Shown: positions 15,028 through 30,736 of the stretch, one piece after another
How the letters are laid out: the number at the start of each line of letters is the position of its first letter
Position numbering within the stretch: position 1 is the stretch's first letter
Assembly (NCBI GenBank): GCA_026392455.1
Contig: JAPLCB010000009.1
Coordinates: 248,001-312,000 of the forward strand
Source of the DNA: Propionibacteriales bacterium
GTDB lineage: Bacteria; Actinomycetota; Actinomycetes; Propionibacteriales; Nocardioidaceae
Reading direction: 5' to 3'
Length of the DNA: 64,000 nucleotides
The notes under the pieces: model-generated
What the model saw: the letters and a program-made list of their open reading frames with translations, nothing else
The model's database searches: none
Told to the model about the DNA's origin: nothing
Made by a program: the position numbers and the translations under genes

Positions 15028-16505
15028 GCGGCACTGGCCGGGTCGACGCAGCTGACGGCCTGGCGTTGCGCCGGTACCAGCTCGGCGGTGCGGCAGTCCA
15101 GGGCGACCAACGCGTTCTTGCCCTTGCGGAACTTCACGGTGAAGTGCGCGGTCTCGGGCTGCGTCGAGACGTTCAGCGCGAAGAGCCCGGTGAGCTGCCA
15201 GCGCTCGGAGTCGGTGACGACCTTCCAGCCGGCGTCGACCTTGAACGCCGAGAAGGTGAAGGCCTCACCCTGGGTGATCGTCTGGGGCGGTGTGGTCGCT
15301 GCCTTCCCGAAGTTCGAACCGCCCCGGCCGTTGACCAGGACGAACACCACGACCAGCAGCACGATCGGCACCACCAGCAGGAGACCACCGGGGATCAGCC
15401 AGCCCAGGTCAGCGGCCCGGTCCGCACGACGACGGGCGCGGGGAGCAGGTTCGGGTGCGGGCTCAGGGTCGGCCTGGGCCTCCGGCTCCGGCTCGGGCTC
15501 CGGCTCGGCGGACTCGACCGCCGGAGCGGCCACGCTGCGACGCGCACGCCACCCCCGGGCACGTCGCGTTTCCGGTGAGGTCGCCGGCTGCTCCGGCTCG
15601 TCGGCACCGACCTCGTCGACGAAGAGCGGCCTCACCTCCGGCGCGGACGGCGGCTCGACGACCACTGCCGGTTCCGGCACCGGCTCGACCACGACCGCTG
15701 GTTGAGGTGCCGGCACCGGCTCGACCACGACCGCTGGTTGAGGTGCTGGCGCGCTAGCGCTGGCCTCGAAACCCGGAAGGGACGCCGGCAACCTGCCCAC
15801 CCCGGCGAGCGCCGCGGCCAGCCCGGACAGGTCGTACCGGTCCTCGGACGCAGCCGCCACCGACCGACGGAGGATCTCGTTGAGCCGGTCGAGGCCCTGA
15901 TCGCCGGCCGGCAGCTGCGGAACCGCCTCCGTGCCTGCGGCAACAGCACTGCCGCTGAGGACCAGCCACAGCAGCCGCCCCAGCGCCGGGACCGCACCCG
16001 GGCCCGGGTCGGCGCCGCTCAGGACGCCGTTGACCCCGAGGTAGGCGTAGAGAACGCTGCCGCGGTCCCGCACCAGGACGTCGCTCGGACCAACGTCGTC
16101 GACCACGATGCCGGCACACTCAGCATCAGCGATGGCCTCGCAGAGCTGCCCGACGACGCTCAGGGCGACCTGCGGAGCGGGACGACCGTGCACCCGCAGG
16201 TAGTCGTCCAGGTTGCCGTCCGGGACGAACTGGCTGACCAGGAAGAGGAAGCCGTCGCGCTCGCCGTGGTCGTGGAGCTGGGTCACGTGCAGGGCGTTGA
16301 GCGACGCCAGCGCCGCTGCGTCCCGGGAGAACCGGTCTCCGAACCCGGGCGCACCGGTCAGCTCCGGGTCGAGGAGCTTGATCGCGACCTGCCGGCTGAG
16401 CCGGGCGTCGAAGGCCTCGTAGGTGGTGCCGCGGCCACCGGTCCCCAGCACCCGCACGAGTCGGTACGCGCCGAAGGCATCGCCGACTTCCGGGAACCTC
16501 GCCAT
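14982..16505 (-). CDS. Membrane-anchored Ser/Thr protein kinase homologue, probable pseudokinase
   Basis: About 507 residues from the ATG at 16503-16505 (GAGAAGG 5 nt upstream; a GTG one codon earlier is possible). The kinase-like domain, about residues 13-265, keeps the glycine loop (GTGGRGTTYEA) and the VAIK lysine (RQVAIKLLDPEL). The catalytic loop, normally HRDVKPSN, reads VDDVGPSD, and DFG is replaced by YLG (LYAYLGVNG). The Mg-binding Asn and Asp are therefore missing. A Pro/Ala/Glu-rich linker (about 265-370) contains a REP-derived segment and 12-residue repeats (PAPQPAVVVEPV). One TM follows (LIPGGLLLVVPIVLLVVVFVLV) and then an extracellular domain with two cysteines. A signalling scaffold or nucleotide sensor is more likely than an active kinase. 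Confidence 0.82.
   Translation of the reverse strand: MARFPEVGDAFGAYRLVRVLGTGGRGTTYEAFDARLSRQVAIKLLDPELTGAPGFGDRFSRDAAALASLNALHVTQLHDHGERDGFLFLVSQFVPDGNLDDYLRVHGRPAPQVALSVVGQLCEAIADAECAGIVVDDVGPSDVLVRDRGSVLYAYLGVNGVLSGADPGPGAVPALGRLLWLVLSGSAVAAGTEAVPQLPAGDQGLDRLNEILRRSVAAASEDRYDLSGLAAALAGVGRLPASLPGFEASASAPAPQPAVVVEPVPAPQPAVVVEPVPEPAVVVEPPSAPEVRPLFVDEVGADEPEQPATSPETRRARGWRARRSVAAPAVESAEPEPEPEPEAQADPEPAPEPAPRARRRADRAADLGWLIPGGLLLVVPIVLLVVVFVLVNGRGGSNFGKAATTPPQTITQGEAFTFSAFKVDAGWKVVTDSERWQLTGLFALNVSTQPETAHFTVKFRKGKNALVALDCRTAELVPAQRQAVSCVDPASAAYDPGWDSVTVEPAF
15675..15746. repeat. 36-bp perfect tandem duplication in the kinase linker
   Basis: 15675-15710 and 15711-15746 are identical. Each unit encodes 12 residues (PAPQPAVVVEPV register) and carries a TGGTTGAGGTG repeat arm. 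The length keeps the reading frame. Confidence 0.85.
15734..15773 (-). repeat. REP-like palindromic repeat inside the pseudokinase coding sequence
   Basis: Read on the minus strand it starts GGTTTCGAGGCCAGCGCTAG and ends CGCCAGCACCTCAACCAG. It matches the intergenic copies at recA-recX and at 61136, but here it is translated in frame as GFEASASAPAPQPA. Confidence 0.8.
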
Positions 16506-16647
16506 CACAACCTTCTCGACTCGTGCCCGTCAGAACTTCGTGCCTCCTCGCGGAATATAGCCGCCGATCCGGGTCCAGGGGTTGGATCGGCACGAACTCG
16601 CCACGGGGCGGATCAGGGCAGAGCCGACCCGGCCACGACGCGAAGAA

Positions 16648-16715: not shown

Positions 16716-17561
16716 TCAGCCGAAACGGCCGTTGACGTAGTCCGAGGTGCGCTGGTCGGTGGGGGCGGAGAACATCACGTCGGTGCTGCCGTGCTCGACG
16801 ATGACACCGGGGGCGCCGTTCTCGGCCAGGAAGAAGGCGCACTGGTCGGAGACCCGGGCCGCCTGCTGCATGTTGTGGGTGACGATCACGATCGTCACGT
16901 CCGCGGAGATCTCCTTGATGGTCTCCTCGACCACCCGGGTCGAGGTCGGGTCCAGGGCCGAGCAGGGCTCGTCCATCAGCAGCACCCGCGGGTTGACCGC
17001 GAGCGACCGGGCGATGCACAGCCGCTGCTGCTGACCACCGGACAACGCCGAGCCGGGCTGCTTGAGCCGATCCCGGACCTCGAGCCAGAGTCCGGCACGG
17101 ACCAGGCTGGTCTCGACCAGGTGGTCGCGCTCGGACCGCGACACCTTCACGCCGGTCAGGTGCAACCCCGCCAGGACGTTGTCGTAGATCGTCATCGCCG
17201 GGAACGGGTTGGGCTTCTGGAAGACCATCCCGATCGACCGACGCGCATCGGTGACCTTGCGAGCAGGGTCGTAGATGTCGTCGCCGTCGAGCCGGACCTC
17301 ACCGGCGAGCTGCGCTCCGGGAACGAGCTCGTGCATCCGGTTCAGGATCCGCAGGAAGGTGGACTTGCCGCAGCCCGAGGGCCCGATCAGGGCCGTCACC
17401 TGGCCCGACGGGACCTCCAGCGAAACCCGGTCCAGCACCTTGCGCTGGCCGAACCAGGCCGAGACCCGGTGAGCCTGGAGCGAGCCGGAGCGTCCCGGCT
17501 GGCCCGGGTGCTCAAGACCCGGCTCGCCGGAATCGACAGCTGGCAGTACGGCGGTGGTCAT
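16716..17561 (-). CDS. pstB: Phosphate ABC transporter ATP-binding protein PstB
   Basis: 281 residues. The ATPase subunit of the PstSCAB importer drives phosphate uptake at the inner face of the membrane. Motifs: Walker [11 protein letters not shown]-loop [17 protein letters not shown] (the PNPFP form is typical of PstB), ABC signature LSGGQQQR, Walker [14 protein letters not shown] and the switch His in [11 protein letters not shown]. About 25 residues precede the usual PstB start. An AAGGAGAAG site precedes the ATG. It is the last gene of the locus, about 9 kb from pstA, separated by the surface-protein genes, with its own AT-rich leader and hairpin at 17586-17628. Confidence 0.95.
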
Positions 17562-17585
17562 GTCGCCTTCTCCTTGGTCAGGTGA

Positions 17586-17628
17586 TGGTGCCGGGAGGCT
17601 GCGCGGGAGGGCGGCTCTCCCGGCACCA
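17586..17628 (-). terminator. Hairpin between the Ig-like gene and pstB
   Basis: Perfect 12-bp arms TGGTGCCGGGAG (17586-17597) and CTCCCGGCACCA (17617-17628), 19-nt loop. It lacks a U tract and ends just upstream of the pstB ribosome site, so it may be a terminator of the upstream gene, an attenuator or an mRNA stabiliser. An AT-rich stretch with a possible minus-strand -10 box TACAAT lies at about 17634-17639. Confidence 0.5.
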
Positions 17629-17654
17629 TCAGATTGTAATAAGAGTAACTTACT

Positions 17655-18866
17655 TTAGTTAGTCACCTTGATGGAAACCGGCGCCGCGTTGCTCGCGCCG
17701 ACCAGGCTGCTGCCGGCGTACTTCGCCACCAGCCGGTAGGTCCCGGCGGCCCGGAACTTGGGCAAGGTGATGGTGATCTTGCCGTTGGTCGCGGCGGTCA
17801 GCGTGACCGTCTTGAGCAGCTTGCTGCCGACGTAGATCCGGATCGTCCCGGTCGGCTTAAGGACGCCCGCGGCCTTGACGGTGACGATGATCCTCGGAGC
17901 GACCGCCTTCCTGATCGGCGTCGCGTAGATCTTGCCGACGGTCGTCGAGATCGCCTTGCTGACCACGACGTTCTTGGGAGCCGCCTGGCTCGCCGCGATC
18001 GTCCCGGTGCCGCCGTACTTGACCGTCAGCGCACTGGTTCCCGGCACCAGCTTCGTTCCGGGGACCGTGATCGTCGCCTTCCCCAGACCGGTACTGGTCA
18101 ACGCCTTGCTGGCGAGCAGCGTCGCACCCTTGAAGACCGACACGGTGCCGGTCGGACTCGGGGTCCCGGCGACGGTCACCGTCGCGCTGACGTTGAACGC
18201 GGTGCCGTACCGGGCCTTGGTGGGAACCACCGAGGCCGTCGTCGACGGCGTCAGGTTCACCGGCGACGCAGCGATCGCCCAGCTGGAACCAGTGACCTTG
18301 ATGTACGTCGAGGCGTACGTCGTCCCGACGCCCTTGGCATTGCCGGTGCGCAGACGGATCTCGTAGACCCCTGCGAAACCGGTGGCGCTCGACGTGTTCG
18401 GGTACGCCGCGATGTAGTCGGCGAGCGACTCGCTACCGGCCGTCCCCTTGACCGCCGGGTCCGCGCCGATCACGCCGGGAGCGCCGGAGACCGGGTACGC
18501 GTTCGCCCCGGTCAGCTGGGACCCGGTCCAGGCGCCCTGGACCAGGCTCGGGTTCGCGGTGTAGGCGAACAGCGAGGCGTGGGTGTCCCCGGCGCGGAGG
18601 TCTCCGTCCACCGAGGCGTACGGGACGAAGGGCTTGGCAGCGACCAGCCCGGAGGTGATCTCAGCCCCCGCCGCGTCGTAGAACTTCAGCGGGGTGGCCG
18701 AACGGTCCGGGTTGGCGGTCACGGTGGTCTCGTCGGCGCTGTACCAGGCGAGCGCGTCGGGGTCTCCGGTGAATCCGGCCGCGAACGCGGCACCAGCGGC
18801 GGCCGTGGTGGCGAACAGGGCGAGCCCTGCTACTACTGCCCACGGCTTGCGAAGTCGTGTCTTCAC
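17655..18866 (-). CDS. Secreted protein with two bacterial Ig-like repeats
   Basis: 403 residues from the GTG at 18864-18866 (VKTRLRKPWAV), with a GAGAGG-type site upstream; the longer frame runs through the neighbouring gene. A signal peptide (VVAGLALFATTAAAGAAFAA) is followed by a domain (about 28-210) related to the protein encoded at 18940-19575: both have a SLADYIAAYP/TLADFTAAYP motif, then YEIRLRTG and YVQLRLVVG. Two Big_3_5-type Ig-like repeats follow (SPTGTVSVFKGATLLASKAL and KPTGTIRIYVGSKLLKTVTL). There is no LPxTG signal or C-terminal TM, so it is either released or held non-covalently. It lies inside the Pst-like locus, and its role there is unknown. Confidence 0.75.
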   Translation of the reverse strand: MKTRLRKPWAVVAGLALFATTAAAGAAFAAGFTGDPDALAWYSADETTVTANPDRSATPLKFYDAAGAEITSGLVAAKPFVPYASVDGDLRAGDTHASLFAYTANPSLVQGAWTGSQLTGANAYPVSGAPGVIGADPAVKGTAGSESLADYIAAYPNTSSATGFAGVYEIRLRTGNAKGVGTTYASTYIKVTGSSWAIAASPVNLTPSTTASVVPTKARYGTAFNVSATVTVAGTPSPTGTVSVFKGATLLASKALTSTGLGKATITVPGTKLVPGTSALTVKYGGTGTIAASQAAPKNVVVSKAISTTVGKIYATPIRKAVAPRIIVTVKAAGVLKPTGTIRIYVGSKLLKTVTLTAATNGKITITLPKFRAAGTYRLVAKYAGSSLVGASNAAPVSIKVTN

Positions 18867-18939
18867 GATGTTCCTCTCAAAGGATCTGGATGGATCACTC
18901 GGTCGGTCGAGCGATCCGGGAGCTTGTTCTGGGACTGCG

Positions 18940-19575
18940 TCACGGCACTGGGTTCCGGGCTGTCTGGGCCGTGCCCCGACAGTCGCCGCCACCACCGGTG
19001 ACGAGCTCCCAGCGGTCGCCGTCGATGCGGACGTCGGCGGTGTCGTACTTGGCGCGCGGTGGCGCCCCAACGCCGCCCACGACCAGGCGGAGCTGGACGT
19101 AGCCGTCCCAGGTCGCCGGGTAGGCAGCCGTGAAGTCGGCCAGGGTGGTGGACCTGTCGCTGATCCGCGCGAACGGGTGCGCGACATCGGTCACCGTGGT
19201 CGCCTTCGTGAGGAGCCCACCGCTGAATTCCTCGGGCGAGACGCCTTCGCGTGGTTGGTAGGCCAGCAACGTGGCGGTCCCTCCCTGGGCGTACTGTCCG
19301 TCGACCGCGGTCGAACCCACGACCAGGTCGGCGAACGGTGCGTCCTTGGTGGAGCCTCGGGTCACTTCCGACCCGTCGACGTTGCAGAACGTCAACGTGC
19401 CGGTCGCGGCAGGATCGGTGTACGGCGCCTCGGGGTCCTGGTGGACCACGAACCAGCCGGTCGCGAGCCCGACGAGCACACCCGCCGCCGCGATCGCGAT
19501 CCAGACCTTGGTCCGGTCCGCGCGCGCGGGTGCGACGGCCTGGTCAGGACCTTCGCTCTCGGTGGATGTACTCAT
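18940..19575 (-). CDS. Single-pass membrane protein related to the neighbouring Ig-like protein
   Basis: 211 residues. The cytoplasmic N terminus is followed by one TM near residues 23-45 (VWIAIAAAGVLVGLATGWFVV) and an extracytoplasmic domain of about 160 residues. The domain parallels the N-terminal domain of the downstream Ig-like protein (TLADFTAAYPATWDGYVQLRLVVGG against SLADYIAAYPNTSSATGFAGVYEIRLRTG), so the two genes probably arose by duplication. It starts at an ATG 41 bp after the SBP-like gene and is probably co-transcribed with it. No catalytic motif seen. Confidence 0.65.
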   Translation of the reverse strand: MSTSTESEGPDQAVAPARADRTKVWIAIAAAGVLVGLATGWFVVHQDPEAPYTDPAATGTLTFCNVDGSEVTRGSTKDAPFADLVVGSTAVDGQYAQGGTATLLAYQPREGVSPEEFSGGLLTKATTVTDVAHPFARISDRSTTLADFTAAYPATWDGYVQLRLVVGGVGAPPRAKYDTADVRIDGDRWELVTGGGGDCRGTAQTARNPVP

Positions 19576-19616
19576 CGGTGCTCGCTCTCGGCGCAGTGGT
19601 GGACGTCGGGTCAGGA

Positions 19617-20921
19617 TCAGGGGGTGCCCTTGTCGACGTACGCCGGCGTGATGCCCGCGGCCGTCAGGAGCGCCTGCCCGGCCTCGGTCTGGACGAACGG
19701 TGCCGGACCGTCAGGGTTGTAGAAGAGCGCCTGCACCCAGTTCAAGGTGCTGCCCGGCTGCCACGGGGCCGTCGACTGGTAGTCGGAGTCACGGAAGATC
19801 GCGTTGTACGGGAAGTCCACGACGAACGACGAGGCGCCACCGGTCTGGTTGGTGCCGTTCTCGTCGAGCAGCTTCAGGCCGGCCACGCTGAGCGGGGTAC
19901 GACTGGCGGCGGTGTAGGAGTTCGCCCCCGCCGTGCCGTTGACGGTCGGGTCGACGTAGTAGCCGTTCTGCAGCAGGCGGAACCGACCCCGCGGGAACGG
20001 GACGATGGTGTTCTGCTTGTCGGTGTTGCTGGCCAGGCCGGTGATCACGGTGGGGTCGTTCTGCTGCACCTGGCGACGGTTCGGGTTGGTGATGTAGTTG
20101 GTGACGAAGGCGTTCTTCTCCGCCGTGGTCCCGAACGCCTGGCCCCAGTACGCCGCGAGCGGGCGCAGGAACACGTCGCGCATCCCGGCCGAGGCCGGCA
20201 GTGTCAGCGGCAGGATCGTGTCGGTCCCGGTCCCACCGACGGCGTCCCAGGTGAGCACCGGGGTGTCGTCGGCCTTCTTGCCGCGGTAGATCCAGGCGAC
20301 CTGCTCGACGGTCAGCGTGGAGGGCGCGTGGGTGTCGGTCGAGGTCAGGATCAGGTCCTTGTCGAGACCGATCTGGACGGTGTGGATGGTGCCGACACCA
20401 GCAGCGCCAGCGGCGGTGGCGCCCTGGGCCGCGGTCGGCAGGTTGGGGCTGCGAGCGACGTCGATCCAGTGATTGGTGCCGTCCTGCAGCAGTGCGGTGA
20501 TGCCGCCGTTCCCACCGGAAGGACGGACCTCGTTCGGCGCGCCGGCGGCCAGGGTGGCGGCCGGGTTGAGCACCTTGATGTCGTTGAGCTTGACGTAGTC
20601 CTCGTTACCGGCGACGCCGTCGAGGCTGCCCGAGTAGGTGTTGGACGAGGCCGGGTCGACGTACGCGGTGCGGCCCTGGGCGTCCCCGGAGGAGTCGAAG
20701 CTGACCAGCCGCCACTTGTTGCCGGCGGTGTTGAACCCCGGGAGGGCGCCGTACCCGTCGGCCAGGAAGTTGAAGGCGTTCTGCTGGATGTCCGAGCCCA
20801 CCGTCACGACGTCCTTGGGCTGCGGCGCCAGGTCGGCCTCGGCGGGCGCCTGCGCCAGCAGGGCTCCGATGGTTGCCAGACCGACGACGGATACGCCGAG
20901 GGCCTTCCTCTTTTTGTGCAT
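19617..20921 (-). CDS. Secreted PstS-like substrate-binding protein
   Basis: 434 residues with a signal peptide (KKRKALGVSVVGLATIGALLAQAPAEA). The mature start VVTVGSDIQQNAFNFLADGY resembles the first strand and anion-binding loop of PstS-type periplasmic binding proteins. LTVEQVAWIYRGKKADDTPVLTWDAVGG corresponds to the family's IFTGKITNW region, and FPRGRFRLLQNGYYVDPT lies in the second lobe. There is no lipobox or C-terminal anchor, so it is probably soluble or bound to partner proteins. A leader of about 130 bp with AT-rich sequence precedes it, so it may have its own promoter within the locus. Confidence 0.7.
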   Translation of the reverse strand: MHKKRKALGVSVVGLATIGALLAQAPAEADLAPQPKDVVTVGSDIQQNAFNFLADGYGALPGFNTAGNKWRLVSFDSSGDAQGRTAYVDPASSNTYSGSLDGVAGNEDYVKLNDIKVLNPAATLAAGAPNEVRPSGGNGGITALLQDGTNHWIDVARSPNLPTAAQGATAAGAAGVGTIHTVQIGLDKDLILTSTDTHAPSTLTVEQVAWIYRGKKADDTPVLTWDAVGGTGTDTILPLTLPASAGMRDVFLRPLAAYWGQAFGTTAEKNAFVTNYITNPNRRQVQQNDPTVITGLASNTDKQNTIVPFPRGRFRLLQNGYYVDPTVNGTAGANSYTAASRTPLSVAGLKLLDENGTNQTGGASSFVVDFPYNAIFRDSDYQSTAPWQPGSTLNWVQALFYNPDGPAPFVQTEAGQALLTAAGITPAYVDKGTP

Positions 20922-21057
20922 TGCCTTGCCTTTCTTAGTTAACTCAGTCGAGTTTGAGATCGCGAAGGGCCGCGAGCTCAGAAGTTCGAGGGGGGTGTGC
21001 AGACCTTACGGGCTCACGGATTGATTGTGTAGTAAGTCTTGCATCTTGGTACACATT
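20922..21057 (-). promoter_or_regulatory. AT-rich leader of the SBP-like gene, possible internal promoter
   Basis: Contains the palindrome AGTTAACT (20937-20944) within TTTCTTAGTTAACT, a stretch GATTGTGTAGTAAGTC and a purine-rich site before the ATG. TTTCTTAGT also occurs upstream of pstC at 28714-28722. No PHO-box direct repeat of the Streptomyces type (GTTCACC) was recognised. Confidence 0.35.
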
Positions 21058-21972
21058 TCAGATCAATGCTGGAAGGAGGCGGGAAACCAGGGACGAAACC
21101 ATCCAGAGCACGGCCAGGACCGCCGGCAGACCGGTGACCCAGGCTCCGACCCGCGACCAGCGGAACCAGGCCCAGACCGCACCGATCAGCGCCAGCACCA
21201 ACAGCTGCACCGCCACGGCGAGCAACGCCAGCTGCCCGGTACTCGCGCGGGCCCTCATCCCGATCCCCTGCGGATCCGGACCGGTCACCGGGCCGGCCAC
21301 CACCGGCTTGCCGAGCAGCTTCGCGTCGACGTAGAGCACCTCGGAAGGACGCAACGAGGAGAGCCACCCGTCACCCACCGAGGTGACCAGCGACAGCCGG
21401 GCCTCGCCGGGTGCGGGAGCAGCGATCTCCTCCCCCTCGGTCCGGTTCCCGGTGACCTCGAAGGTGAACTCACCCTGACCGGTCGTGACCCGGATGTCGT
21501 CGCCCGCGCGGAGCTCGTCGATCCGCCCGAACGGGGCGCCGAAGGTCAAGGACCGACCGGTCACCACGCTCCAGCCGGCCTGCCCGGGGAGCACCGTCCC
21601 GAGTGCGTGGCCCGGACCCTGCTTCAGCTGCTCGCTGCGGCCACCCTCGACGACCACGAGGTTGTCGACCCCCACGTCGGGGATGCTCAGCAGCGCCACC
21701 GGTTCACCGGCGACGATCGGAGCCCCGACCGGTGCCGTGCCCTCGGCGAGCTGCGAGCGCAGCTCGTTGTAGAGGCGGTCCTGGTCGTGGGACTTCTCGA
21801 AACCGCTGAGCACCAGGAGGTAGACCAGCATCCAGGCGAGCAGGATCGCCAGCGCCAGCATCACCGGGCTGAGCAGGGCCGGCAGGTCAGCGCGCCGGTC
21901 GCCGCCGGGAGGCGACGCGTCGATCTCCCCGGCGTGCACCTCGGTGGTCGCGGGCGGGGTCAGCGTGCTCAT
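21058..21972 (-). CDS. Sortase-fold membrane protein lacking catalytic residues (pseudosortase)
   Basis: 304 residues: an N-terminal TM near 37-57 (VMLALAILLAWMLVYLLVLSG), a class E/F sortase-like domain at about 88-222, and two C-terminal TMs (247-268 and about 278-298). The fold is recognisable from IPDVGVDNLVVVEG, QGPGHALGTVLPGQAGWSVV and FGAPFGRIDELRAGDDIRV. The catalytic His of the GH(R) motif is replaced by Arg at about 140 (VTGRSLTFG), the catalytic Cys of TLxTC by Ser at about 198 (LSLVTSVGD), and the usual Arg before the last strand is not seen. Transpeptidase activity is therefore unlikely. The start overlaps the stop of the upstream gene (ATGA at 21969-21972). Confidence 0.75.
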   Translation of the reverse strand: MSTLTPPATTEVHAGEIDASPPGGDRRADLPALLSPVMLALAILLAWMLVYLLVLSGFEKSHDQDRLYNELRSQLAEGTAPVGAPIVAGEPVALLSIPDVGVDNLVVVEGGRSEQLKQGPGHALGTVLPGQAGWSVVTGRSLTFGAPFGRIDELRAGDDIRVTTGQGEFTFEVTGNRTEGEEIAAPAPGEARLSLVTSVGDGWLSSLRPSEVLYVDAKLLGKPVVAGPVTGPDPQGIGMRARASTGQLALLAVAVQLLVLALIGAVWAWFRWSRVGAWVTGLPAVLAVLWMVSSLVSRLLPALI

Positions 21973-24776
21973 CGTCGTACCCTCCGCAGCCCGTCACGGA
22001 CCAGGGCGCTGACCTCCGCGGCGATCGCGCGACGGTGCGGCAGCAGCCGCAGACCTGCACCGCCGACCAACGAGGCGAACAGCAGCCCGAAAGCGACCAG
22101 GAACCCGAGGTTGCCCAGCGGCGAGTAGTCCCGCTTGGTCTTCACCAGCTGGATCGGCGCCGTGACCGTGGCGGCCGGGCCGGCCTGCGGCTGACCCGGG
22201 TTCGGCGAGACAGCGACGTCGGGGAGCACCCCGGTGCCGCCGCCCGGTCCGGCCACCGGGGTGGTCGGCGCCGGCGTCGGGTCGACCGCGGGGGCCGCCT
22301 CGAACGCGGTGCTGCACTTCCCGGCCGGCCCGCTGCTGCCCGGCAGCTGACCGGTCTGCGCCTTGACCAGTCGCGAGGCCCGGACCGTGTAGGCCCGGAG
22401 CACCTCCAGGCCGCTGGCCGCGGTGATCGGCAGGTACCCGGCCGGCAGCTCACCGTTCGCGGAGCCTGCCTCCTGGCCGGTGGTCGCGGCGTAGCAGAGG
22501 AAACGGGAAAGCTTCCCGGCCGCCTCCGGCTCGACACCCTCGGTCGGGACGTCGGCGAAGACCGGGACCAGACCCGGGTACGCCGTGGCCCCGCCACCGG
22601 AGCGCAGCGCGGAGTAGTCGAACGTCCACGCCCCCGCGTCGTCCGGCTTGATGTACTTGGCCGCGTTCCGCAGCCCGGCCGGGTCCGGGTAGACGAAGCT
22701 CCGACCGGCCCCGTCGTCGAACCGCTCGCCCGCCGGGACGGTCGAGGTGGTCTGCAAGGACGCGAGCCGCAGGTTGTAGCGGGCGGCGGCCGACAGGGTC
22801 GACAGCCCCAGCACCATCCGCGAACCGACGAGCTGGCGACCGAGCTTCTTCAGACCCAGACGGCTGATGTCACCGCGATCCCCCGCCTCGCAGGCAAAGT
22901 TCACCGCCGACAGTGCGTACTGGATGTTCAGCGCGATCGACCCGAGGTTCGCCGTGGGGTTCGAGACCAGGCCCAGGACCGGCGAGGGGCTGTTGGAGTA
23001 GCAGAAGTTCCTGTCGCTGGCGATGAACGAGTCCGGTGCGATCCAGGTGTCCAGCTGCGGCCAGGCCTCGGTCGGCAGCTCGATGTCCTTGTACGCCGGG
23101 TTCACCTTCATCCCCCACGGGTCCGGGGTGCCGTCCAACCACGCCCGGGCCTCGGGATCGGAGTCCAGGAAACGGGTCACCGACCACATCAGGTCGGAGT
23201 CGGCCGAGAGGATCTGGACGGTGGCTGCGGTCGCGTTGGCCGAGTCCGCCTTCATCCCGGGGTTGAGGGCCTTGAACTCCGGGTCCACGGTGATGTTCAT
23301 CGGGTTCCCGGCCAGAGCCGCGTAGTCGGTCCGGACGATGTCGAGCGCCGGGTACGACTGGCTGAGCAGCTTGGCGAGCAGCCGGCCGTTGAGGCGCAGC
23401 GACTCCCGGGGCGACTTGTCGGCGTTGTCGACGTTGAAGACCACACCGAAGCCACCGACCGCGATCGGCGCCTGCACCGTGGGGCGCGTGGGCGACTCCA
23501 GCGGCTGCGACCCGAGAGCGGCCTCGATGTTGCCGACCGCGAGCAGGTTGCGCGAGGCCACCTCCGAGGACTGGACGTGCACGAACGGGAAGAGGCCCTT
23601 GTCGGTGCAGAAGCGCGGTTGCCAGGAAGCGGTCAGCTCGTTGAGGACGACCGACCCGTAGACCGGCTGCGGCTTGCCGCCGCCGACGACCTTGCAGATC
23701 GAGTCCGAACCGGCGAAGCTCAGCGGCACCGTGATCCGGTTGTGCCAGTTCGACGGCGCCCACCACAGCGCACCCGCGGTCGCGAGGTTCGTCTCGACTG
23801 CGTCGGTGTGCTCCTGACCGGCTCCGTAGGCATCGGGCCGGGCGCACTGAGCGGCTGCCTCGGTCGCCTCGGCCTCGGTCGGCCGAGCCGCGACCGGCAG
23901 CTTGGTGCCGTACGGGTCGCAGCTGATCCCGACCACCGGGACGGCCACCAGCGAGCAGTCCACGGTGCTGGTGCAGCCGAGCGAGGCGTTCTCGCTGGAG
24001 GTCCACACCGCGAAGTCGGCACTGCCGCTGCCGTCGGCCTTGGTGACGCCGTAGGTGGTGTTGCTGGGCAGGCTCCCGGACCCGACCTCGTCGGACTCCG
24101 GCGCCATTCCGACACAGTCGGCCAGCGGGGTCGGACCGCCCTGGTACACGGTGCCGTTCTTGGCGATGAACGGCAGCCACCGCTCGGCCGGCGCGAGCCG
24201 GCCGCAGGCGTCCGGCCGCGGCTCGGGCTCTCCGACGTGCCGTTCGCGCTCGGCGGCGGTCGCGAACGCGTCCGAGCGCCAGGCCGGCCAGCGGGTGGAG
24301 GTGTCCTTGCGGAACCGCTCCTGGGCTGTCTGGGTCCAGCAGGTCTCCGGTCGGACCCTGGTCTGCCCGCGACCCGGGTTCTCAACACCTCGGCACTGCA
24401 GCAGCACGAATGGATACTCGACACCGACTCCGGCCCCGGAGTGCACGTCGCTGACCAGGCCACCGCTGGGATGCGCTCCCGTCCACCGGACGGCCACCTC
24501 CTGGCGCCCACGGAGGTTCGTGGTCTGCGACACGGTCAGCTTGACGTCGTAGTCGGCCACCGTCGTCACCGTGTCGTCAGCCGCGATCGCGGTCCGCGCG
24601 ATCTTCTTCGTCTGGCTGAAGGCAACCGCGCCAGCCGCGTCGGCCGCACCGGTGGTCGACGTGACCACCGGGGCGAAGACGATCCCGCCGGCGGCGAACA
24701 GCACCGCCACCAGCACCAGGGCGATCCGGGCCTGGGCGCCGCTCGGCAGCGCGCGTGCTCGCGACAGCAGGCTCAT
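21969..24776 (-). CDS. Large surface protein with PstS-like segments and C-terminal TM
   Basis: 935 residues from the ATG at 24774-24776 (GGGGAG 5 nt upstream; a GTG one codon earlier is possible). A signal segment (ARIALVLVAVLFAAGGIVFAP) leads into about 850 extracellular residues and a C-terminal TM near 885-907 (LGNLGFLVAFGLLFASLVGGAG) with a basic cytoplasmic tail. The middle contains binding-protein features: APIAVGGFGVVFNVDNADK and LRLNGRLLAKLLSQSYP resemble the lobe-crossing strand and IFTGKI region of PstS. At least a dozen cysteines suggest disulphides. A Pro/Gly-rich stalk precedes the TM. It overlaps pstS at its start and the pseudosortase gene at its end. Function unknown, probably ligand capture or sensing at the cell surface. 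Confidence 0.75.
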   Translation of the reverse strand: MSLLSRARALPSGAQARIALVLVAVLFAAGGIVFAPVVTSTTGAADAAGAVAFSQTKKIARTAIAADDTVTTVADYDVKLTVSQTTNLRGRQEVAVRWTGAHPSGGLVSDVHSGAGVGVEYPFVLLQCRGVENPGRGQTRVRPETCWTQTAQERFRKDTSTRWPAWRSDAFATAAERERHVGEPEPRPDACGRLAPAERWLPFIAKNGTVYQGGPTPLADCVGMAPESDEVGSGSLPSNTTYGVTKADGSGSADFAVWTSSENASLGCTSTVDCSLVAVPVVGISCDPYGTKLPVAARPTEAEATEAAAQCARPDAYGAGQEHTDAVETNLATAGALWWAPSNWHNRITVPLSFAGSDSICKVVGGGKPQPVYGSVVLNELTASWQPRFCTDKGLFPFVHVQSSEVASRNLLAVGNIEAALGSQPLESPTRPTVQAPIAVGGFGVVFNVDNADKSPRESLRLNGRLLAKLLSQSYPALDIVRTDYAALAGNPMNITVDPEFKALNPGMKADSANATAATVQILSADSDLMWSVTRFLDSDPEARAWLDGTPDPWGMKVNPAYKDIELPTEAWPQLDTWIAPDSFIASDRNFCYSNSPSPVLGLVSNPTANLGSIALNIQYALSAVNFACEAGDRGDISRLGLKKLGRQLVGSRMVLGLSTLSAAARYNLRLASLQTTSTVPAGERFDDGAGRSFVYPDPAGLRNAAKYIKPDDAGAWTFDYSALRSGGGATAYPGLVPVFADVPTEGVEPEAAGKLSRFLCYAATTGQEAGSANGELPAGYLPITAASGLEVLRAYTVRASRLVKAQTGQLPGSSGPAGKCSTAFEAAPAVDPTPAPTTPVAGPGGGTGVLPDVAVSPNPGQPQAGPAATVTAPIQLVKTKRDYSPLGNLGFLVAFGLLFASLVGGAGLRLLPHRRAIAAEVSALVRDGLRRVRR

Positions 24777-26413
24777 CACAGCTCCCCGCGCCGTCGGACC
24801 AGGCGGCTGACGCCGACCGGGGTGACAACGGCCCCGAGGAACAGGCCGATCACCAGCAGGGTCAGCACCGCGGAGGTTCCGTCGGACTGGCCGGCGTCCA
24901 GGGTGGTCGGCACGATCACGGCGTCGCCGGCCTGCGCAATCTGCCCCGAGGCCGGCACCAGGAGCCCGGTCACCGGGTCCTGGACCAGCCCGCCGGCACC
25001 ACCGGTCGCCCCGGTCGCGCCCGTCGTACCGGTGCCGGTCCCGTTGGTACCGGTGCCGGCACTGCCGGTCCCAGCCTTGGTGCCGGTCGATCCCGGGTTG
25101 CTGTTGAAAGAACCAACACCCTCGGCGCAGGGGTCCGCTCCGATCTTGTCGCAGGCCGGAGGCTGCGGGGCGATCTGCGCCAGGTGGTTCACGTTGGGCT
25201 TGCCCGCGATGAAGGTCGGGTTGTTGCAGGTGCTGACGTCACGCCTGGTCAGGTCGACCGCCGGGTCCGCCTTCTTGATCTTCGCGATCTGCTCGAACCC
25301 GGCCTTGACCAGGTTGATCGGCAACGGCGAGTACCCGACCGGACCGATCTCGGACTGCCCCTGGCAGATCGAGTAGTAGAGGAAGTCGGCGAGCGTCTGC
25401 CGCTTCGGGGTCGAGCTCAACCGCTTGTCGTCGGCTGCGGTCGGGATGATCGCGTAGACGTAGGAGGACAGCGCGTAGGTCCGCTTGTCGGGGTTGACGT
25501 AGACCCGGTCAAGCTTCTGGGTCAGGTAGTTGGGGTCGGCCGGATTGTTGTTGATCTGGGCCGCGGTCAGCGCGACCGCCACGTTGTACTGCGTCGGCAA
25601 CGTGTAGTAGCCGGCCTTGTTGAGCAGCTTGGCAACCGGGAAGTTCGCCATCAGCGGGTAGGAGTACTCCTCCATCGCGATCGAACCGACGGCGTTCTCG
25701 GACTTCACGTAGTTCATGACGCCGTCCGACCCGGTCTGCGCCTTCTGCGGTCCGTTGGCGGCACCGCAGTTCGTCGGGTAGTAGTCGGTCGGTGCGGCCT
25801 TTCCGTTGCAGGCCTTCCAGATCGCCGGGTACTCCTTGGTCAACCACGTCGTGAACTGGTTGGTGACACCGGCCCCGTCGGCGCGCACCACCGGGATGAT
25901 CGGGATGGACGGCAGCGTGCGGCCGTTGTTGTCCGCGGAGATCTGCGGGTCGTTCCAGTTGGTGATCTTGTTGGTGAAGATCTTCGCGACGGTCTCGCCG
26001 GACAGCCGCAGGTTGCGGATCGCCTTGCCGCCGACCTTGACGTTGTACGGGAACGACGTCCCGCCGGCGACGACCGGGAGGTAGGCGAACGAACGTCCGC
26101 CGGAGTTGTCGGGCGCGCCCGTGGTCGGGTCCTGACCCCGGTACGGCGAGTCGGTGACGCCGAAGTCGGTCGACTTGTTCGCGTAGTCCTTGCGCCCCTG
26201 GGCGGCACCATTCGCGGTGTAGACGACCTGGAGTCCCTGGTTCTCGACGTCAGCCACCCACTGGTTGATGGCGTTGGCCGCCCAGCTCGACCCGGAGCCC
26301 TGGATCAGCGCGTGCGCGGCAGCGGCCTGCGCGCCGCTGGGCCCGACCAGCAGCGCCAGGATCCCTGACAGCGCGACCGCTCCGGTGCGCAACAACCTCC
26401 GCGAGCCGATCAT
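24776..26413 (-). CDS. pstS: PstS phosphate-binding protein with C-terminal membrane anchor
   Basis: 545 residues, starting at the ATG 26411-26413 that overlaps the pstA stop (ATGA). Signal peptide: TGAVALSGILALLVGPSGAQA. The binding domain, about residues 30-390, has IQGSGSSWAANAINQWV (phosphate loop), STDFGVTDSPYRGQDP, VAKIFTNKITNWNDPQI, and SDGVMNYVKSENAVGSIAMEEYSY. A Gly/Thr-rich stalk follows (GTGSAGTGTNGTGTGTTGAT). A TM at the end (AVLTLLVIGLFLGAVVTPVG) replaces the usual lipobox anchor. PstS proteins are normally about 370 residues, so the stalk and anchor are unusual. It delivers substrate to PstC-PstA. Confidence 0.9.
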   Translation of the reverse strand: MIGSRRLLRTGAVALSGILALLVGPSGAQAAAAHALIQGSGSSWAANAINQWVADVENQGLQVVYTANGAAQGRKDYANKSTDFGVTDSPYRGQDPTTGAPDNSGGRSFAYLPVVAGGTSFPYNVKVGGKAIRNLRLSGETVAKIFTNKITNWNDPQISADNNGRTLPSIPIIPVVRADGAGVTNQFTTWLTKEYPAIWKACNGKAAPTDYYPTNCGAANGPQKAQTGSDGVMNYVKSENAVGSIAMEEYSYPLMANFPVAKLLNKAGYYTLPTQYNVAVALTAAQINNNPADPNYLTQKLDRVYVNPDKRTYALSSYVYAIIPTAADDKRLSSTPKRQTLADFLYYSICQGQSEIGPVGYSPLPINLVKAGFEQIAKIKKADPAVDLTRRDVSTCNNPTFIAGKPNVNHLAQIAPQPPACDKIGADPCAEGVGSFNSNPGSTGTKAGTGSAGTGTNGTGTGTTGATGATGGAGGLVQDPVTGLLVPASGQIAQAGDAVIVPTTLDAGQSDGTSAVLTLLVIGLFLGAVVTPVGVSRLVRRRGEL

Positions 26414-27576
26414 CGGTCTTTCCTCTCTGTGACGACACGCGTCTTGACGACGCGGGGCTTGACGACGAACCTGGCAAGCACGAACAGCGACAGCACGACC
26501 ACCAGCAGCACCGTCGCGGCGGCGTAGGCGCGCACCTCGGCGTTCGGGTTGCCTGAGACGACCGAGGCGTACACGAACAGCGGCAACGAGTTCATCGGGT
26601 TGTGGAACGGGTCGGAGTTCATGAACGTCGAGGCACCCGACGTCAGCAGCACCGGGGAGGTCTCCCCCACGGCGCGCGCGACTCCGAGGATCAGCGCGGT
26701 CGCCAGACCGGGGCGAGCCGTCGGGAGCACGACCTTCCAGACGGTCTGCCACTTCGTGGCCCCCAACGCGTACGACGCCTCGCGCAACCCGCCCGGCACC
26801 ACCCGGAGCACCACGTCGCTGGCCCGCGCCATGATCGGCAGTGCCATCACCGCCAGCGCGAGCGCAGCGGCGAACCCGCTGCTCGGGACGCCGAGCTTCA
26901 CGATGAAGACCGTGTAGATGAAGAGACCGGCCACGATCGAGGGCAGGGCTGTCATCGCCTCGACCACGGCTCGCACCAACCGAGCACCGCGCCCGCCGAC
27001 CTCGGACATGTAGATCGCGGTGAGCAGCCCGAGCGGCATCGCGATCGCCACCGCGATCCCGACCTCGATCACGGTGCCGACGATGGCGTGCGCGATGCCA
27101 CCGGTGTCGAAGTCCGAGGACGGCCGGACGCCGGCCATGTCGTCGAGGTAGAAGTTCGGGTGCACCAGCGCCGGCATTCCCTTGGCCACGATCACCACGA
27201 CCGTGCTCAGCAGTGCGGCGCCGACCAGGGCCGGTCCACCGATCACGGCGGTGGTCACCACCCGGTCCACGACGACGTGCCGCGGCTGGGTCAGGGCGCT
27301 GAGGCCGGCGTAGAAGAGGACGAAAGCCAGGTACCAGCAGACGACGAACCCGATCTTGCCGTCGAAGGGCAGCAGCTTGGTGTAGAGCAACCAGACCGCG
27401 GCCAGCGACCCGATTGCTGCCGCCACCGACGTCAGGACGTCGTCGCGGGTGCGCGACCGGGGGCGGCGCAGGACCTCGGCGCCCTCGGGCACCACGGGTA
27501 CGGCCCGGCGGCGTCCGGGGAGTCGCGGCTGTTCGGCGTCCGACTCGCGGACCGGCGGCTCGACCAGGGTGGTCAC
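26410..27576 (-). CDS. pstA: Phosphate ABC transporter permease PstA
   Basis: 388 residues from a GTG at 27574-27576 that overlaps the pstC stop (GTGA). The permease core includes the cytoplasmic coupling (EAA-type) loop around REASYALGATKWQTVWKVVLPTARPGLATALILGVARAVGETSPVLL, diagnostic of PstA. PSSDFDTGGIAHAIVGTVIEVGIAVAIAMPLG is typical of the family. About 60 extra N-terminal residues are basic and proline-rich and precede two additional predicted TM segments. With PstC it forms the membrane channel. Confidence 0.93.
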   Translation of the reverse strand: MTTLVEPPVRESDAEQPRLPGRRRAVPVVPEGAEVLRRPRSRTRDDVLTSVAAAIGSLAAVWLLYTKLLPFDGKIGFVVCWYLAFVLFYAGLSALTQPRHVVVDRVVTTAVIGGPALVGAALLSTVVVIVAKGMPALVHPNFYLDDMAGVRPSSDFDTGGIAHAIVGTVIEVGIAVAIAMPLGLLTAIYMSEVGGRGARLVRAVVEAMTALPSIVAGLFIYTVFIVKLGVPSSGFAAALALAVMALPIMARASDVVLRVVPGGLREASYALGATKWQTVWKVVLPTARPGLATALILGVARAVGETSPVLLTSGASTFMNSDPFHNPMNSLPLFVYASVVSGNPNAEVRAYAAATVLLVVVLSLFVLARFVVKPRVVKTRVVTERKDR

Positions 27577-28610
27577 AGCTCGGTCACCTCGTTCCCGCGG
27601 GCGCGGGCGACGACCATGGCGGCGCCGGTGTTGACGACCAAGGTCATGCAGAACAGCACGAAACCTGCGGTGAGCAGGGCCGAGAGTTGGGACGGTGACG
27701 CCTCCTTGAAGCCGCTGGCGATCAGCGCCGAGATGGTCGACGTACCCGCCTCCAGGACGTACGGCTTGAGCTCGAAGGTCTGCGAGATGATCAGGACGAC
27801 CGAGATCGTCTCGCCGAGCGCGCGCCCCAGCGCCAGCATCGTCCCGCCGACGACGCCGCTCTTGCCGAAGGGCAGGACCACGGTCCGGACCATCGCCCAG
27901 CGGGTAGCGCCGAGCGCGATCGCCGCCTCCTTCTCGCCGACCGGCGCCTCGGAGAAGACCTCGCGCATGACCGAGGTGGCCATCGGGAAGATCATCATCG
28001 CGACCGCGATGGCGGCCATCGCCGCGGAGCCGGCGTACGACGGGTAGCCGGGCGCCTGGCTCCAGATCGGGTAGTCGGTGTCGGTCCGGACGTGGAGCAG
28101 CGGGATCCAGCCGAAGGTCTTGCTGAGCCAGTGCGCCACGTGGGTGGCGTGCGGCTGGACGAAGACGAGGACCCAGAGCCCGAAGACGATCCCGGGCACC
28201 GCGGCCATCAGGTCGGTGAGCCGGATCAGGGTCGGCCGCATCCAGCCCGGAGCCCAGTCGGTGATGAACAGGGCGCTGAGCAGGGCCAGCGGGAACGCGA
28301 ACAGCAGCGCGATCACCGCGACCTGGATGGTCCCGAGCACGACCGCCGCAATCCCGACGATGTCCTGGCTCGGCAGCCACCGGTACTCGGTGAAGTACGA
28401 CCACCCGTAGTGGCTCAGCGTCGGCCCGGCCTGGATCCCCAGGAAGATGCCGATCGAGGAGACGATCACCAGCACCAGGAGACCGACCGAACGCACACCG
28501 TTGACGAAGATCCGGTCCTGGAGGGTCAACCGGGTCGCCACCTGGCGAGGGATGTCGTCGCGCTCGAGGAGGTCGCCCCCGGCTCCCGGGCGGGGAGTCG
28601 AGTCACTCAA
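27573..28610 (-). CDS. pstC: Phosphate ABC transporter permease PstC
   Basis: 345 residues if translation begins at TTG 28608-28610 (LSDSTPRPGAGG), which has AAAGGA about 7 nt upstream; a GTG at 28649 without a site is the alternative. The family core is clear: YFTEYRWLPSQDIVGIAAVVLGTIQVAVIA, the loop APVGEKEAAIALGATRWAMVRTVVLPFGKSGVVGGTMLALGRALGETISV, and six TM segments. First gene of the locus; it overlaps pstA by 4 nt. The upstream region holds an AT-rich stretch (28687-28735) and a 32-bp tandem repeat. Confidence 0.93.
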   Translation of the reverse strand: MSDSTPRPGAGGDLLERDDIPRQVATRLTLQDRIFVNGVRSVGLLVLVIVSSIGIFLGIQAGPTLSHYGWSYFTEYRWLPSQDIVGIAAVVLGTIQVAVIALLFAFPLALLSALFITDWAPGWMRPTLIRLTDLMAAVPGIVFGLWVLVFVQPHATHVAHWLSKTFGWIPLLHVRTDTDYPIWSQAPGYPSYAGSAAMAAIAVAMMIFPMATSVMREVFSEAPVGEKEAAIALGATRWAMVRTVVLPFGKSGVVGGTMLALGRALGETISVVLIISQTFELKPYVLEAGTSTISALIASGFKEASPSQLSALLTAGFVLFCMTLVVNTGAAMVVARARGNEVTEL

Positions 28611-28735: not shown

Positions 28736-28740
28736 TACGC

Positions 28741-28826
28741 GACCGGGCGCAGATGTCCCGCCGCAAGACGCCGACCGGGCGCAGATGTCCCGCCGCAAGA
28801 CGCCGACCGGGCGCAGATGTCCCGCC
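28741..28826. repeat. 32-bp tandem repeat, 2.7 copies
   Basis: Units start at 28741, 28773 and 28805 with GACCGGGCGCAGATGTCCCG; the last is truncated after 22 nt. The copies are identical where they overlap. They lie between the TetR stop codon and the pstC promoter. Confidence 0.9.
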
Positions 28827-28831: not shown

Positions 28832-29395
28832 CTAGGGCTGGGCTTCGCTGCTGAGGAAGGTGATCAGGTTCTCGATGTCGTCGGCCGTCGGCTGCGGCAA
28901 CGAGGCCTGGCCGTGGGCGAACCCGATGCCGGCGTACACCAGGAGGCCGGCGCGAAGCCGGGCGTCCTGCGCCGAGTGGCCGAGCTCCAGCAGGGCGGCC
29001 TGGACGAGCTCGAAGACGAACTGGTCGGCCTCGACGATCACCACGGCGACCTTGGCGTCGTCCTTGGCCCACTCGCGCAAGGCCCGCTCGACGCTCCAGG
29101 AGCGGTCGTCGATCAGCCGCAGCGCCATCGCCCGGATCCGCTCCAGCGGAGGCAGCGCGTGCAGCTCCGAGAGCCCGCTCAACGCCTCGCGGGTCTCCGC
29201 GCACCACTTCTCCGCGATCGCGGCGAGGAAGGCGTCCAGGTCGGCGAAGTGCCAGTAGAAGCTGCCCTTGGTCACCCCGAGCTCACGGCAGAGCCGGTTG
29301 ATCTTGATCGCCCCGACGCCTTCGTCCATCAGCAGGGCGAGGGCGCGCTCGGTCCAGTCGTCGATGGACAACCTGGAGGAGGCGCTCGCAGTCAC
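28832..29395 (-). CDS. TetR-family transcriptional regulator
   Basis: 187 residues from the GTG at 29393-29395, preceded by AAGGTGG. An in-frame ATG at 29443 lies inside the operator palindrome and is rejected. The N-terminal helix-turn-helix is standard TetR: WTERALALLMDEGVGAIKINRLCRELGVTKGSFYWHFADLDAFLAAI. The C-terminal ligand domain is helical and less conserved. It is divergent from the MpaB-like gene, and the palindrome CCATACCTTAGGGTATGG lies between them. A near-identical palindrome lies at the Mce operon promoter, so this protein is the best candidate regulator of both. The ligand is unknown, probably a lipid or acyl-CoA given the targets. Confidence 0.88.
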   Translation of the reverse strand: MTASASSRLSIDDWTERALALLMDEGVGAIKINRLCRELGVTKGSFYWHFADLDAFLAAIAEKWCAETREALSGLSELHALPPLERIRAMALRLIDDRSWSVERALREWAKDDAKVAVVIVEADQFVFELVQAALLELGHSAQDARLRAGLLVYAGIGFAHGQASLPQPTADDIENLITFLSSEAQP

Positions 29396-29439
29396 GGGAC
29401 CCACCTTAGCGAGGGTGCGGACGGTTGCTGACCGGCTGA

Positions 29440-29457
29440 CCATACCTTAGGGTATGG
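29440..29457. promoter_or_regulatory. TetR operator palindrome (site 1)
   Basis: CCATACC-TTAG-GGTATGG, perfect 7-bp arms, between the TetR gene and the MpaB-like gene. It ends 4 nt before the ATG of the latter. The arms are identical to those of site 2 at 40291-40308. Confidence 0.8.
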
Positions 29458-29461: not shown

Positions 29462-30736
29462 ATGACCGCTGAGACGACTCCCGACGTCGACCGCCGTGAA
29501 TGGCGCGCACCCACGCACTTCCGGTACTGGGAAGCCCGCGACGAACCGGCCTGGCGCAGCCGCGAGAAGCTGGTCAAGAAGCTGTTCGGCCACGAACTCT
29601 TCCCGACCGATGAGCACGCCCGGTTCCTCCTCGACGACCTGTACGGCGGCGACCCGGTCGCCGAGCGGTTCGTGGCTGAGGTCTTCTCCGGTCCCGGCGG
29701 CCACCAGAAGGGCCGGGCGATGCTGACCCGGGCGCTCGCCGACGGCATCGATGCCGTCGAGGACGCACCGCAGTCGATGAAGGACCTGTTTGCCGAGTTC
29801 GACACGGTGCCGGACTGGGTCGACCGCGACCAGGTCGAGCTCGGGGCGGAGATCTGGCGACGCTGGGGGACGATGCTCTTCAACGTCGCCGGCGTGATCA
29901 CCCTGGAGATCTACACCGAGAGCGGCGTCGCCACCCCGCTGTCCCTGGCCGGCGGGTATGCCGGCGACAACGCACTGCGACGGTTCCTGGAGTCCTGCAA
30001 GTTCTGGATCGACACCTCCGAGGCCGAGGCCCTCTTCACCCCCGGCTCCGAGGGCCGGACCACGGCGATGCTGGTCCGGATCATGCACGTCGCGGTCCGC
30101 AAGCGGGTCGAGGACCACCCCGAGTGGGACAGCGAGAAGTGGGGCCTGCCGATCAGCCAGACCTACATGATGCTCACCCAGATCGGCGGCAGCATCGCCC
30201 CCGCGATGGCGCTGTGGGTGCTGGGCTACCAGACCACGCCGAAGGAGATGCGCGCTCTGCTGCACTTCAACCAGTACCAGGGCCACCTGCTCGGCGTGCA
30301 GCCGCAGTGGCGGCCCACGACCGTCCGCGACTGCCTCCAGGTGCTGGCGATGTCCACGGCGGCCCGGTCCTACGACTCCGGCCAGCACGGCAAGGAACTG
30401 ATCGAGTCGTTCCCGGCGGCCTTCGCCCCGCGCCCCGGCCAGACCCGGCTGCAGCGGCTGCGGTCGGCGTACAGCTACCGGATCATCGCGGCGTACTGCG
30501 GGGTCTGGATGGCGCCGGCGACCCGCAAGCCGTACGACCTGCCGCGGGCCTTCCCCTGGGTCCTGATCCTGGTGCTGCGCTGGCCACTGATCACGGTCAC
30601 CGAGCTGCTGCGTCGCCTGCCCGGCCTCGGCGGCCTGCACAACAAGGTCATGGTCAAGCACCGGCGCAGCTGGTACGAGGCCCAGATGGAAGGCCGCGAG
30701 GCCGCCTTCGACGCGTCCTCCGGGCTGCGTCGCTAG
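29462..30736 (+). CDS. Oxygenase MpaB-family protein (DUF2236, latex-clearing-protein-like)
   Basis: 424 residues of the DUF2236 family, which includes the b-type haem oxygenase latex clearing protein Lcp and fungal MpaB; members cleave or oxidise long hydrophobic chains. All-helical pattern with family stretches FRYWEARDEPAWRSREKLVKKLFG, TESGVATPLSLAGGYAGDNALRRFLES, and VRIMHVAVRKRVE with a candidate haem-ligand His. A C-terminal hydrophobic segment (AFPWVLILVLRWPLITVTELL) may sit on the membrane. There is no Shine-Dalgarno and the operator abuts the ATG, so translation may be leaderless. The CrtC/AttH-like gene follows 99 bp downstream. The substrate is unknown. Confidence 0.78.
   Translation: MTAETTPDVDRREWRAPTHFRYWEARDEPAWRSREKLVKKLFGHELFPTDEHARFLLDDLYGGDPVAERFVAEVFSGPGGHQKGRAMLTRALADGIDAVEDAPQSMKDLFAEFDTVPDWVDRDQVELGAEIWRRWGTMLFNVAGVITLEIYTESGVATPLSLAGGYAGDNALRRFLESCKFWIDTSEAEALFTPGSEGRTTAMLVRIMHVAVRKRVEDHPEWDSEKWGLPISQTYMMLTQIGGSIAPAMALWVLGYQTTPKEMRALLHFNQYQGHLLGVQPQWRPTTVRDCLQVLAMSTAARSYDSGQHGKELIESFPAAFAPRPGQTRLQRLRSAYSYRIIAAYCGVWMAPATRKPYDLPRAFPWVLILVLRWPLITVTELLRRLPGLGGLHNKVMVKHRRSWYEAQMEGREAAFDASSGLRR

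Follow-up and report, generated by a model that had tools for sequence, protein, structure and literature searches.

What is a sortase-like protein without its catalytic residues doing among the genes of a phosphate-type importer? This question is raised by a locus in a 64,000-nucleotide stretch of DNA (hereafter, the window) from a Propionibacteriales bacterium (GenBank assembly GCA_026392455.1, contig JAPLCB010000009.1, positions 248,001 to 312,000), where nine genes on the minus strand span positions 16716–28610 in the order pstC-pstA-pstS-BIG-pseudosortase-SBP-TM-Ig-pstB. In our assessment, there is about an even chance that these genes encode a Pst-derived ATP-binding cassette (ABC) importer to which binding proteins at the cell surface relay the ligand on a scaffold formed by the dead sortase, and that such systems would handle phosphorus in relatives and, in the window, a changed ligand. 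The original prediction for this region, made from the sequence by itself, had the gene order, the single strand, and the coordinates right, though it spoke of eight genes where its own listing correctly gives nine, and of a "fused" locus when the genes are in fact separate. The individual features, including the transmembrane (TM) and immunoglobulin-like (Ig) proteins, are the following.

27573–28610, minus strand: pstC, permease subunit, 345 amino acids, TTG start (TIGR02138, 220.7 bits, curated cut-off 196.45; solved PstC chain 9k3x_B, 9.5e-46)
26410–27576, minus strand: pstA, permease subunit, 388 amino acids (TIGR00974, 226.6 bits, curated cut-off 193.45; solved PstA chain 9k3x_A, 9.5e-36)
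24776–26413, minus strand: pstS-like binding protein, 545 amino acids (PF12849, 1e-35; loops; topology)
21969–24776, minus strand: BIG, 935 amino acids (hhalign to PstS, E 9.5e-15)
21058–21972, minus strand: pseudosortase, 304 amino acids (PF04203, 5.6e-15; class E model, 75.7 bits)
19617–20921, minus strand: SBP-like secreted protein, 434 amino acids, putative PstS-fold relative (relatives match PF12849; hhalign to PstS, E 1e-6)
18940–19575, minus strand: TM protein, 211 amino acids (N-terminal TM segment by eye; ectodomain related to the Ig protein's N-domain)
17655–18866, minus strand: Ig protein, 403 amino acids, GTG start (PF16640, 7e-25)
16716–17561, minus strand: pstB, ATPase, 281 amino acids (TIGR00972, 337.1 bits, curated cut-off 343.2; motifs intact)

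The core of this locus is that of an importer. PstC and PstA both score above the curated NCBIfam cut-offs, whereas PstB falls slightly below its own, and the Walker A, signature, and Walker B motifs are intact in the window PstB and in the full-length pstB products of related loci. Together, Pfam and NCBIfam identify the importer subunits, the PBP domain of PstS, the sortase domain, and the Ig repeats, and return nothing above cut-off for the window's BIG, SBP, or TM protein. Moreover, because the reading frames overlap at the four junctions between genes one to five, by 4, 4, 1, and 4 nucleotides (pstC/pstA at 27573–27576, pstA/pstS at 26410–26413, pstS/BIG at 24776, and BIG/pseudosortase at 21969–21972), just as the predicted overlaps of 1–4 nucleotides had it, at least these five genes look like one operon; gaps lie between the later ones.

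More conspicuously, the fifth product consists of a class E-like sortase domain flanked by hydrophobic segments at both ends. Its likeness to class E sortases is one of sequence (PF04203, as listed above), the best match in the PDB being the class E sortase chain 5go5_A (7.9e-12), although with the class E model NF033747 it stays below the cut-off of 160 bits. In the window protein, the catalytic His has become Arg and the catalytic Cys has become Ser, and there is no cysteine anywhere in the chain. Over 111 distinct pseudosortases, this one included, the Cys position is occupied by Ala (87), Ser (14), Gly (8), Thr (1), or Val (1), and the His position by Arg (104), Lys (4), or His (1, at locus L008), with two sequences not covering it. 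Unlike class E sortases, then, all 111 lack the Cys, and of the 109 sequences covering the His position, 108 lack the His. Further, 70 of 108 pseudosortases lack a Cys in their last 250 residues, and the remaining 38 have at least one, none of them at the catalytic position. The search itself showed a clear score gap, with 30 places at E ≤ 1.3e-32 covering most of the query and the next match at 3.1e-21, and 12 of the first 13 sortase-like matches below this gap served as controls. These class E-type sortases have the His in 12/12 and an LxTC motif in 11/12, the alignment itself reaching the Cys position in six. At the catalytic Arg position, none of the 111 pseudosortases has Arg, a count on which we do not rely, as this position is aligned in a single full control (L159, Arg). 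Conservation of the domain is good, column identity averaging 41% over 36 sequences. Judged by the catalytic residues it has lost, the sortase-like protein is catalytically dead.

Three of the products are PstS-like, PstS among them. The window PstS itself combines a signal peptide lacking a Cys lipobox with a PstS domain, a Gly/Ala/Thr-rich stalk, and a C-terminal TM segment, in keeping with the TM anchor and stalk that had been predicted in place of a lipobox. Its loops read NGAAQG, TDSPY, and RADGAGVTN, and while it matches PF12849 (1e-35), its TIGR00975 score of 178.7 bits is below the 205-bit curated cut-off. A lipobox-like motif is found in 2 of 104 PstS proteins; by comparison, the genome's own canonical PstS (locus L001, contig C4) has a lipobox-like N-terminus and loops that differ from those of the window protein. 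BIG begins with a Cys-containing region of unknown fold, continues from about residue 374 as a PstS-like domain, and ends in a stalk and a C-terminal TM segment. Here, the PstS-like segments of the original prediction have grown into an alignment that runs along the PstS domain from residue 374 (E 9.5e-15) and extends into the low-complexity stalk. The SBP also aligns to PstS (E 1e-6), both values coming from one-to-one hhalign comparisons and not from database searches. PF12849 is matched by 17 of 36 SBP family members (best, 4.1e-16), the window's own SBP having no match. When BIG and SBP were compared directly as possible relatives, there was no signal (best E 0.23), and both nevertheless align to PstS. 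By a crude hydrophobicity test on distinct family sequences, a C-terminal hydrophobic segment is present in 100/102 PstS, 100/104 BIG, and 107/108 pseudosortase proteins, and in 0/73 SBPs. Neither the window BIG nor 54 of its relatives carries a Pfam domain above cut-off, and the phage or unrelated domains that might have explained the extra proteins were likewise not matched in these relatives or in the window's proteins.

The gene set is found together far more than by chance, as it turns up again both within the family and elsewhere in the class, and homologues are thus not scattered independently. Seeding with BIG gave 59 loci, or 60 with a second locus of the same genome (L007), and the pseudosortase was located on the same strand within 12 kb at 51 of these, pstB at 50, and pstS at 57. 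Eight of the nine loci without a pseudosortase lie on contigs that are cut short, and the ninth (L032) counts as missing only since the BIG seed gave no reading frame past the threshold, though tblastn matched; at L063, in a complete-genome record, BIG is in several pieces. Alternatively, when seeded with the pseudosortase, which occurs in 21 of 100 genomes of the family at 30 places, the 28 places other than the window and L007 show pstB at 28/28, BIG at 27/28, and pstS at 26/28. The two sets overlap, with L009 and L099, as well as L047 and L107, being the same places. At the level of the class, pseudosortase copies that span most of the query occur in 23 of 118 genomes, with partial copies in a further two. 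Among the 26 class loci outside the family, other genes of the set are found at 24 (the remaining L136 and L157 are at contig ends), with BIG at 17/26 and pstB at 19/26, and at the nine loci without BIG the contig ends within about 4 kb on the upstream side of the pseudosortase. In a draw across the phylum, 5 of 119 genomes, the window's own included, have a match at E ≤ 1e-20; matches from outside the class are G321, G252, and, more weakly, G238, with G332 borderline. A record labelled Melainabacteria (L027) also carries the gene set at 69% G+C, and its label may be a binning error.

By their gene order, these loci fall into several subtypes. Subtype I, that of the window, has the order BIG-pseudosortase-SBP-TM-Ig-pstB; in subtype II, the SBP is fused to Ig repeats; subtype III reads SBP-WxL-(WxLIP)-...-pseudosortase-pstB; and subtype IV has pstB first and also carries genes of the WxL, WxLIP, and TM types, which means that the TM protein occurs outside subtype I as well. 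Other orders exist as well (e.g. L114, L119, L120, L125, L129, and L130). In a single FastTree tree of PstS, rooted on the canonical PstS of the window's genome, subtype I forms one clade (support 1.0) that groups with subtype IV at 0.999, subtype IV itself having a support of 0.51. The genome carries three systems, namely subtype I in the window, subtype III on contig C5, and canonical Pst on C4. Its second locus, L007, is a complete subtype III with a WxLIP gene, two Ig proteins, and a PHO-box-like repeat before pstC. At the subtype I loci L008, L010, and L024, a further II-type pst locus follows directly.

As for the smaller surface proteins, the TM protein has no Pfam match and consists of an N-terminal TM segment (by eye) and a single extracellular domain, which is related to the Ig protein's N-domain (E 5.5e-24). 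The Ig protein is secreted, has this N-domain followed by Big_3_5 repeats, and is related to WxL-locus proteins of sibling loci (E 2.1e-16). Homology of the TM protein to the small WxL-locus proteins was not supported (E 0.11), and that to the larger ones was weak only (E 6.8e-4). At the sibling loci, WxL (PF13731) is above cut-off in three of the eight proteins examined and WxLIP in one of their two WxLIP candidates; the WxLIP gene of L007 barely passes (27.5 versus 27.3 bits). Among the window's nine proteins, Pfam gave no WxL or WxLIP match.

Which ligand, then, might the window system take up? We take the phosphate-contacting residues of PstS to be S38, D56, R135, S139, and T141 (Escherichia coli numbering). 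The window PstS has A, D, R, A, and V at these positions, and hence three of the side chains are lost. Across 94 aligned PstS proteins, S, E, R, S, and T predominate at these positions, with E replacing the canonical D in 76, whereas in subtype I it is A, D, R or H, A, and V or I, and the A, A, V/I pattern in place of S, S, T holds for 10/10 subtype I PstS in the tree. Moreover, in the equivalent loop, the subtype I SBPs have AGM or AGV where most others show SGT, in all 13 rows including the window (12 distinct loci, given that L009 and L099 are the same place); the PstS of L024 is cut off and that of L098 is split over two frames.

The promoter regions differ among subtypes as well. The PHO box repeat unit is given as GTTCACC (PMC4415409), and PHO boxes are placed before pstS (PMC7866108). 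PHO-box-like direct repeats before pstC (p ≤ 0.05 against random stretches of the same locus, uncorrected for multiple tests) are found at 20/24 subtype II, 11/34 subtype III, 6/14 unassigned, and 0/10 subtype I loci. The unassigned are those of the 82 pstC places without an automatic subtype label, and some of them (the second loci of L008, L010, and L024) are of type II by their PstS and have the repeat. In the window, the score before pstC is 8 of 14 (p 0.97). Seven further class loci with enough sequence before pstC have the repeat there in three cases, and type IV loci have it before their first gene, pstB, in one of five. A PHO box upstream of pstB was also considered for nine loci with pstB last, where it was at background level. 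Genome-wide there are two perfect GTTCACC direct repeats, the first belonging to the canonical pstS and the second located at L131 (C3:352906). On this evidence, subtype II and part of subtype III are probably under PhoP control and serve phosphorus uptake. For the window, phosphate seems unlikely, because the PstS side chains are gone, the SBP loop is changed, and the repeat is missing, whereas subtype II keeps the Ser/Thr residues and mostly the repeat. Given the lost site residues and the missing repeat, the window copy most likely serves some other ligand, which may itself contain phosphorus. Of the surface assembly once proposed to hand phosphate or another ligand to PstC-PstA, the conserved assembly of several PstS-fold proteins and a pseudosortase on a Pst-type importer is supported, the hand-over itself would be a further step, and phosphate as the window's ligand has evidence against it.

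How does this locus compare with known systems? As in the PstSCAB phosphate importer, PstC, PstA, PstB, and a PstS domain are all recognizable, and most subtype II loci share a PHO-box-like repeat with canonical pstS. In contrast to PstSCAB, the PstS is stalked and TM-anchored with no lipobox, two more putative PstS-fold proteins and a pseudosortase are added, and the window subtype is without both the three presumed phosphate-site side chains and the repeat. The WxL/Csc surface clusters of Firmicutes contain WxL and WxLIP/DUF916 proteins and, to our knowledge, lack an ABC importer. Subtypes III and IV resemble them in their WxL- and WxLIP-type genes, as does the window in its Ig protein, but the window locus has an ABC importer and neither WxL nor WxLIP. 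In the Isd system of Staphylococcus, NEAT binding domains relay haem across the wall to an ABC importer, and the locus also encodes an active sortase B. By analogy, the related binding domains here may also span the wall into an ABC importer beside a sortase-like protein, although they would be of the PstS fold (Pfam finds no NEAT match in the window) and the sortase is devoid of catalytic residues. No description of the locus or its odd parts was found among the open-access papers searched, subscription papers and bioRxiv preprints being mostly outside this search.

From the composition, conservation, anchoring, residue losses, and site and promoter differences, all read directly from the sequences, we infer a relay, a scaffold role for the pseudosortase, the kind of ligand, Pho control, and wall attachment. 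PstS and BIG, both with PstS-fold domains, would stand on stalks anchored through C-terminal TM helices, while the SBP would be a third, secreted PstS-fold protein that the Ig-type proteins probably keep at the wall. The dead class E-type sortase, hydrophobic at both ends, would act as a fixed scaffold or docking subunit and not as an enzyme. A ligand caught outside by the SBP might then pass to the anchored PstS and/or BIG and finally be delivered to PstC-PstA, with ATP provided through PstB, such that three PstS-fold proteins, each at its own distance from the membrane, would share the capture step. Subtype I would have left PhoP control and altered its ligand site. More specifically, and only tentatively, as we hold this to be somewhat less than an even bet, the dead sortase may be a permanent subunit of an ABC importer that organizes a three-step PstS-fold relay (one secreted and two stalked proteins) across the actinobacterial wall; this relay would have evolved for phosphorus scavenging and, in the window lineage, been re-tuned through corresponding changes in two of its binding proteins so as to take a new ligand.

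Several observations weigh against this relay. In the hhalign alignment, BIG lacks the Arg and the Ser-Gly-Thr of the ligand loop, and it may bind nothing. The parallel change in PstS and SBP amounts to one event in one clade. Pho control is read from the motif, which is present at under half of the subtype III and further class loci and missing from many streptomycete loci. Moreover, 7 of the 26 class loci have no pstB in the stretch. Of these, L142, L150, and L157 are truncated where their contigs end, and L149 may have its pstB in the upstream position typical of type IV, past the end of the contig; L135 (about 5 kb), L136 (more than 9 kb), and L137 (about 9 kb) lack it on the usual downstream side. 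The last three all belong to genus g69, two of their genomes have a second locus with pstB, and they may borrow the ATPase of that second locus.

Other explanations can be set beside the scaffolded relay. FtsEX uses ATP to move or activate extracellular proteins, and PstCAB might similarly not import at all and instead act on BIG, the pseudosortase, and the Ig/WxL proteins at the wall. Extracellular proteins do make up most of the coding mass, WxL and peptidoglycan-binding WxLIP genes share the locus in relatives, and the phosphate-site residues are lost in subtype I, but we find such a surface-remodelling machine unlikely, as PstC and PstA exceed importer equivalog cut-offs and match solved PstC/PstA, pstS is kept at 57 of the 60 BIG-seeded loci, and the repeats of subtype II point to nutrient uptake. 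Another alternative, that of a plain phosphate importer paralogue with passenger genes of unrelated surface roles, would fit the recognizable Pst core and the differences in extra genes among subtypes. It becomes rather improbable when BIG, SBP, and the pseudosortase stay with the pst genes across family and class, and when other genes of the set are present at 52 of 54 pseudosortase places, L136 and L157 at contig ends being the exceptions.

We regard as improbable, too, a sensor, in which a membrane receptor complex would signal the presence of a ligand outside the cell and would no longer carry out net transport. While the TM-tethered binding proteins and altered ligand loops would suit it, the PstB motifs are intact, the sole PhoU match of the genome is elsewhere, on C4, and by Pfam there is no kinase, PhoU, or response regulator among the window's nine genes (related loci were not searched for these). 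Least of all do we expect the sortase-like protein to be still an enzyme with another nucleophile: domain conservation and the recurrent Arg for His (104/111) could be taken that way, but the Cys position varies among five residues over the 111 sequences, which makes this highly improbable.

Around the locus, a perfect 32-bp tandem repeat (2.7 copies) is located at 28740–28826, between pstC and a TetR-type gene (28832–29443), from which a gene for an MPAB/Lcp rubber-oxygenase-type catalytic domain (29462–30736, plus strand; 9.5e-12) diverges. Beside pstB, at 14982–16508 on the minus strand, is a protein kinase-like protein with a TM segment (Pkinase, 5.2e-10, residues 15–151), whose catalytic-loop and DFG regions appear degenerate by eye.

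ABC importers of Gram-positive bacteria are usually pictured with one lipoprotein as the binding protein. Three PstS-fold proteins and a dead sortase in a conserved actinobacterial locus would, if true, represent a novel way of arranging nutrient capture at the cell surface, and might be the first case of a sortase fold with a non-enzymatic part in a transporter, no paper among the open-access ones searched having been found to pair the two. Moreover, as one genome contains the canonical Pst, a subtype III copy preceded by a PHO-box-like repeat, and an altered subtype I copy, a putative change of ligand could be followed here side by side.

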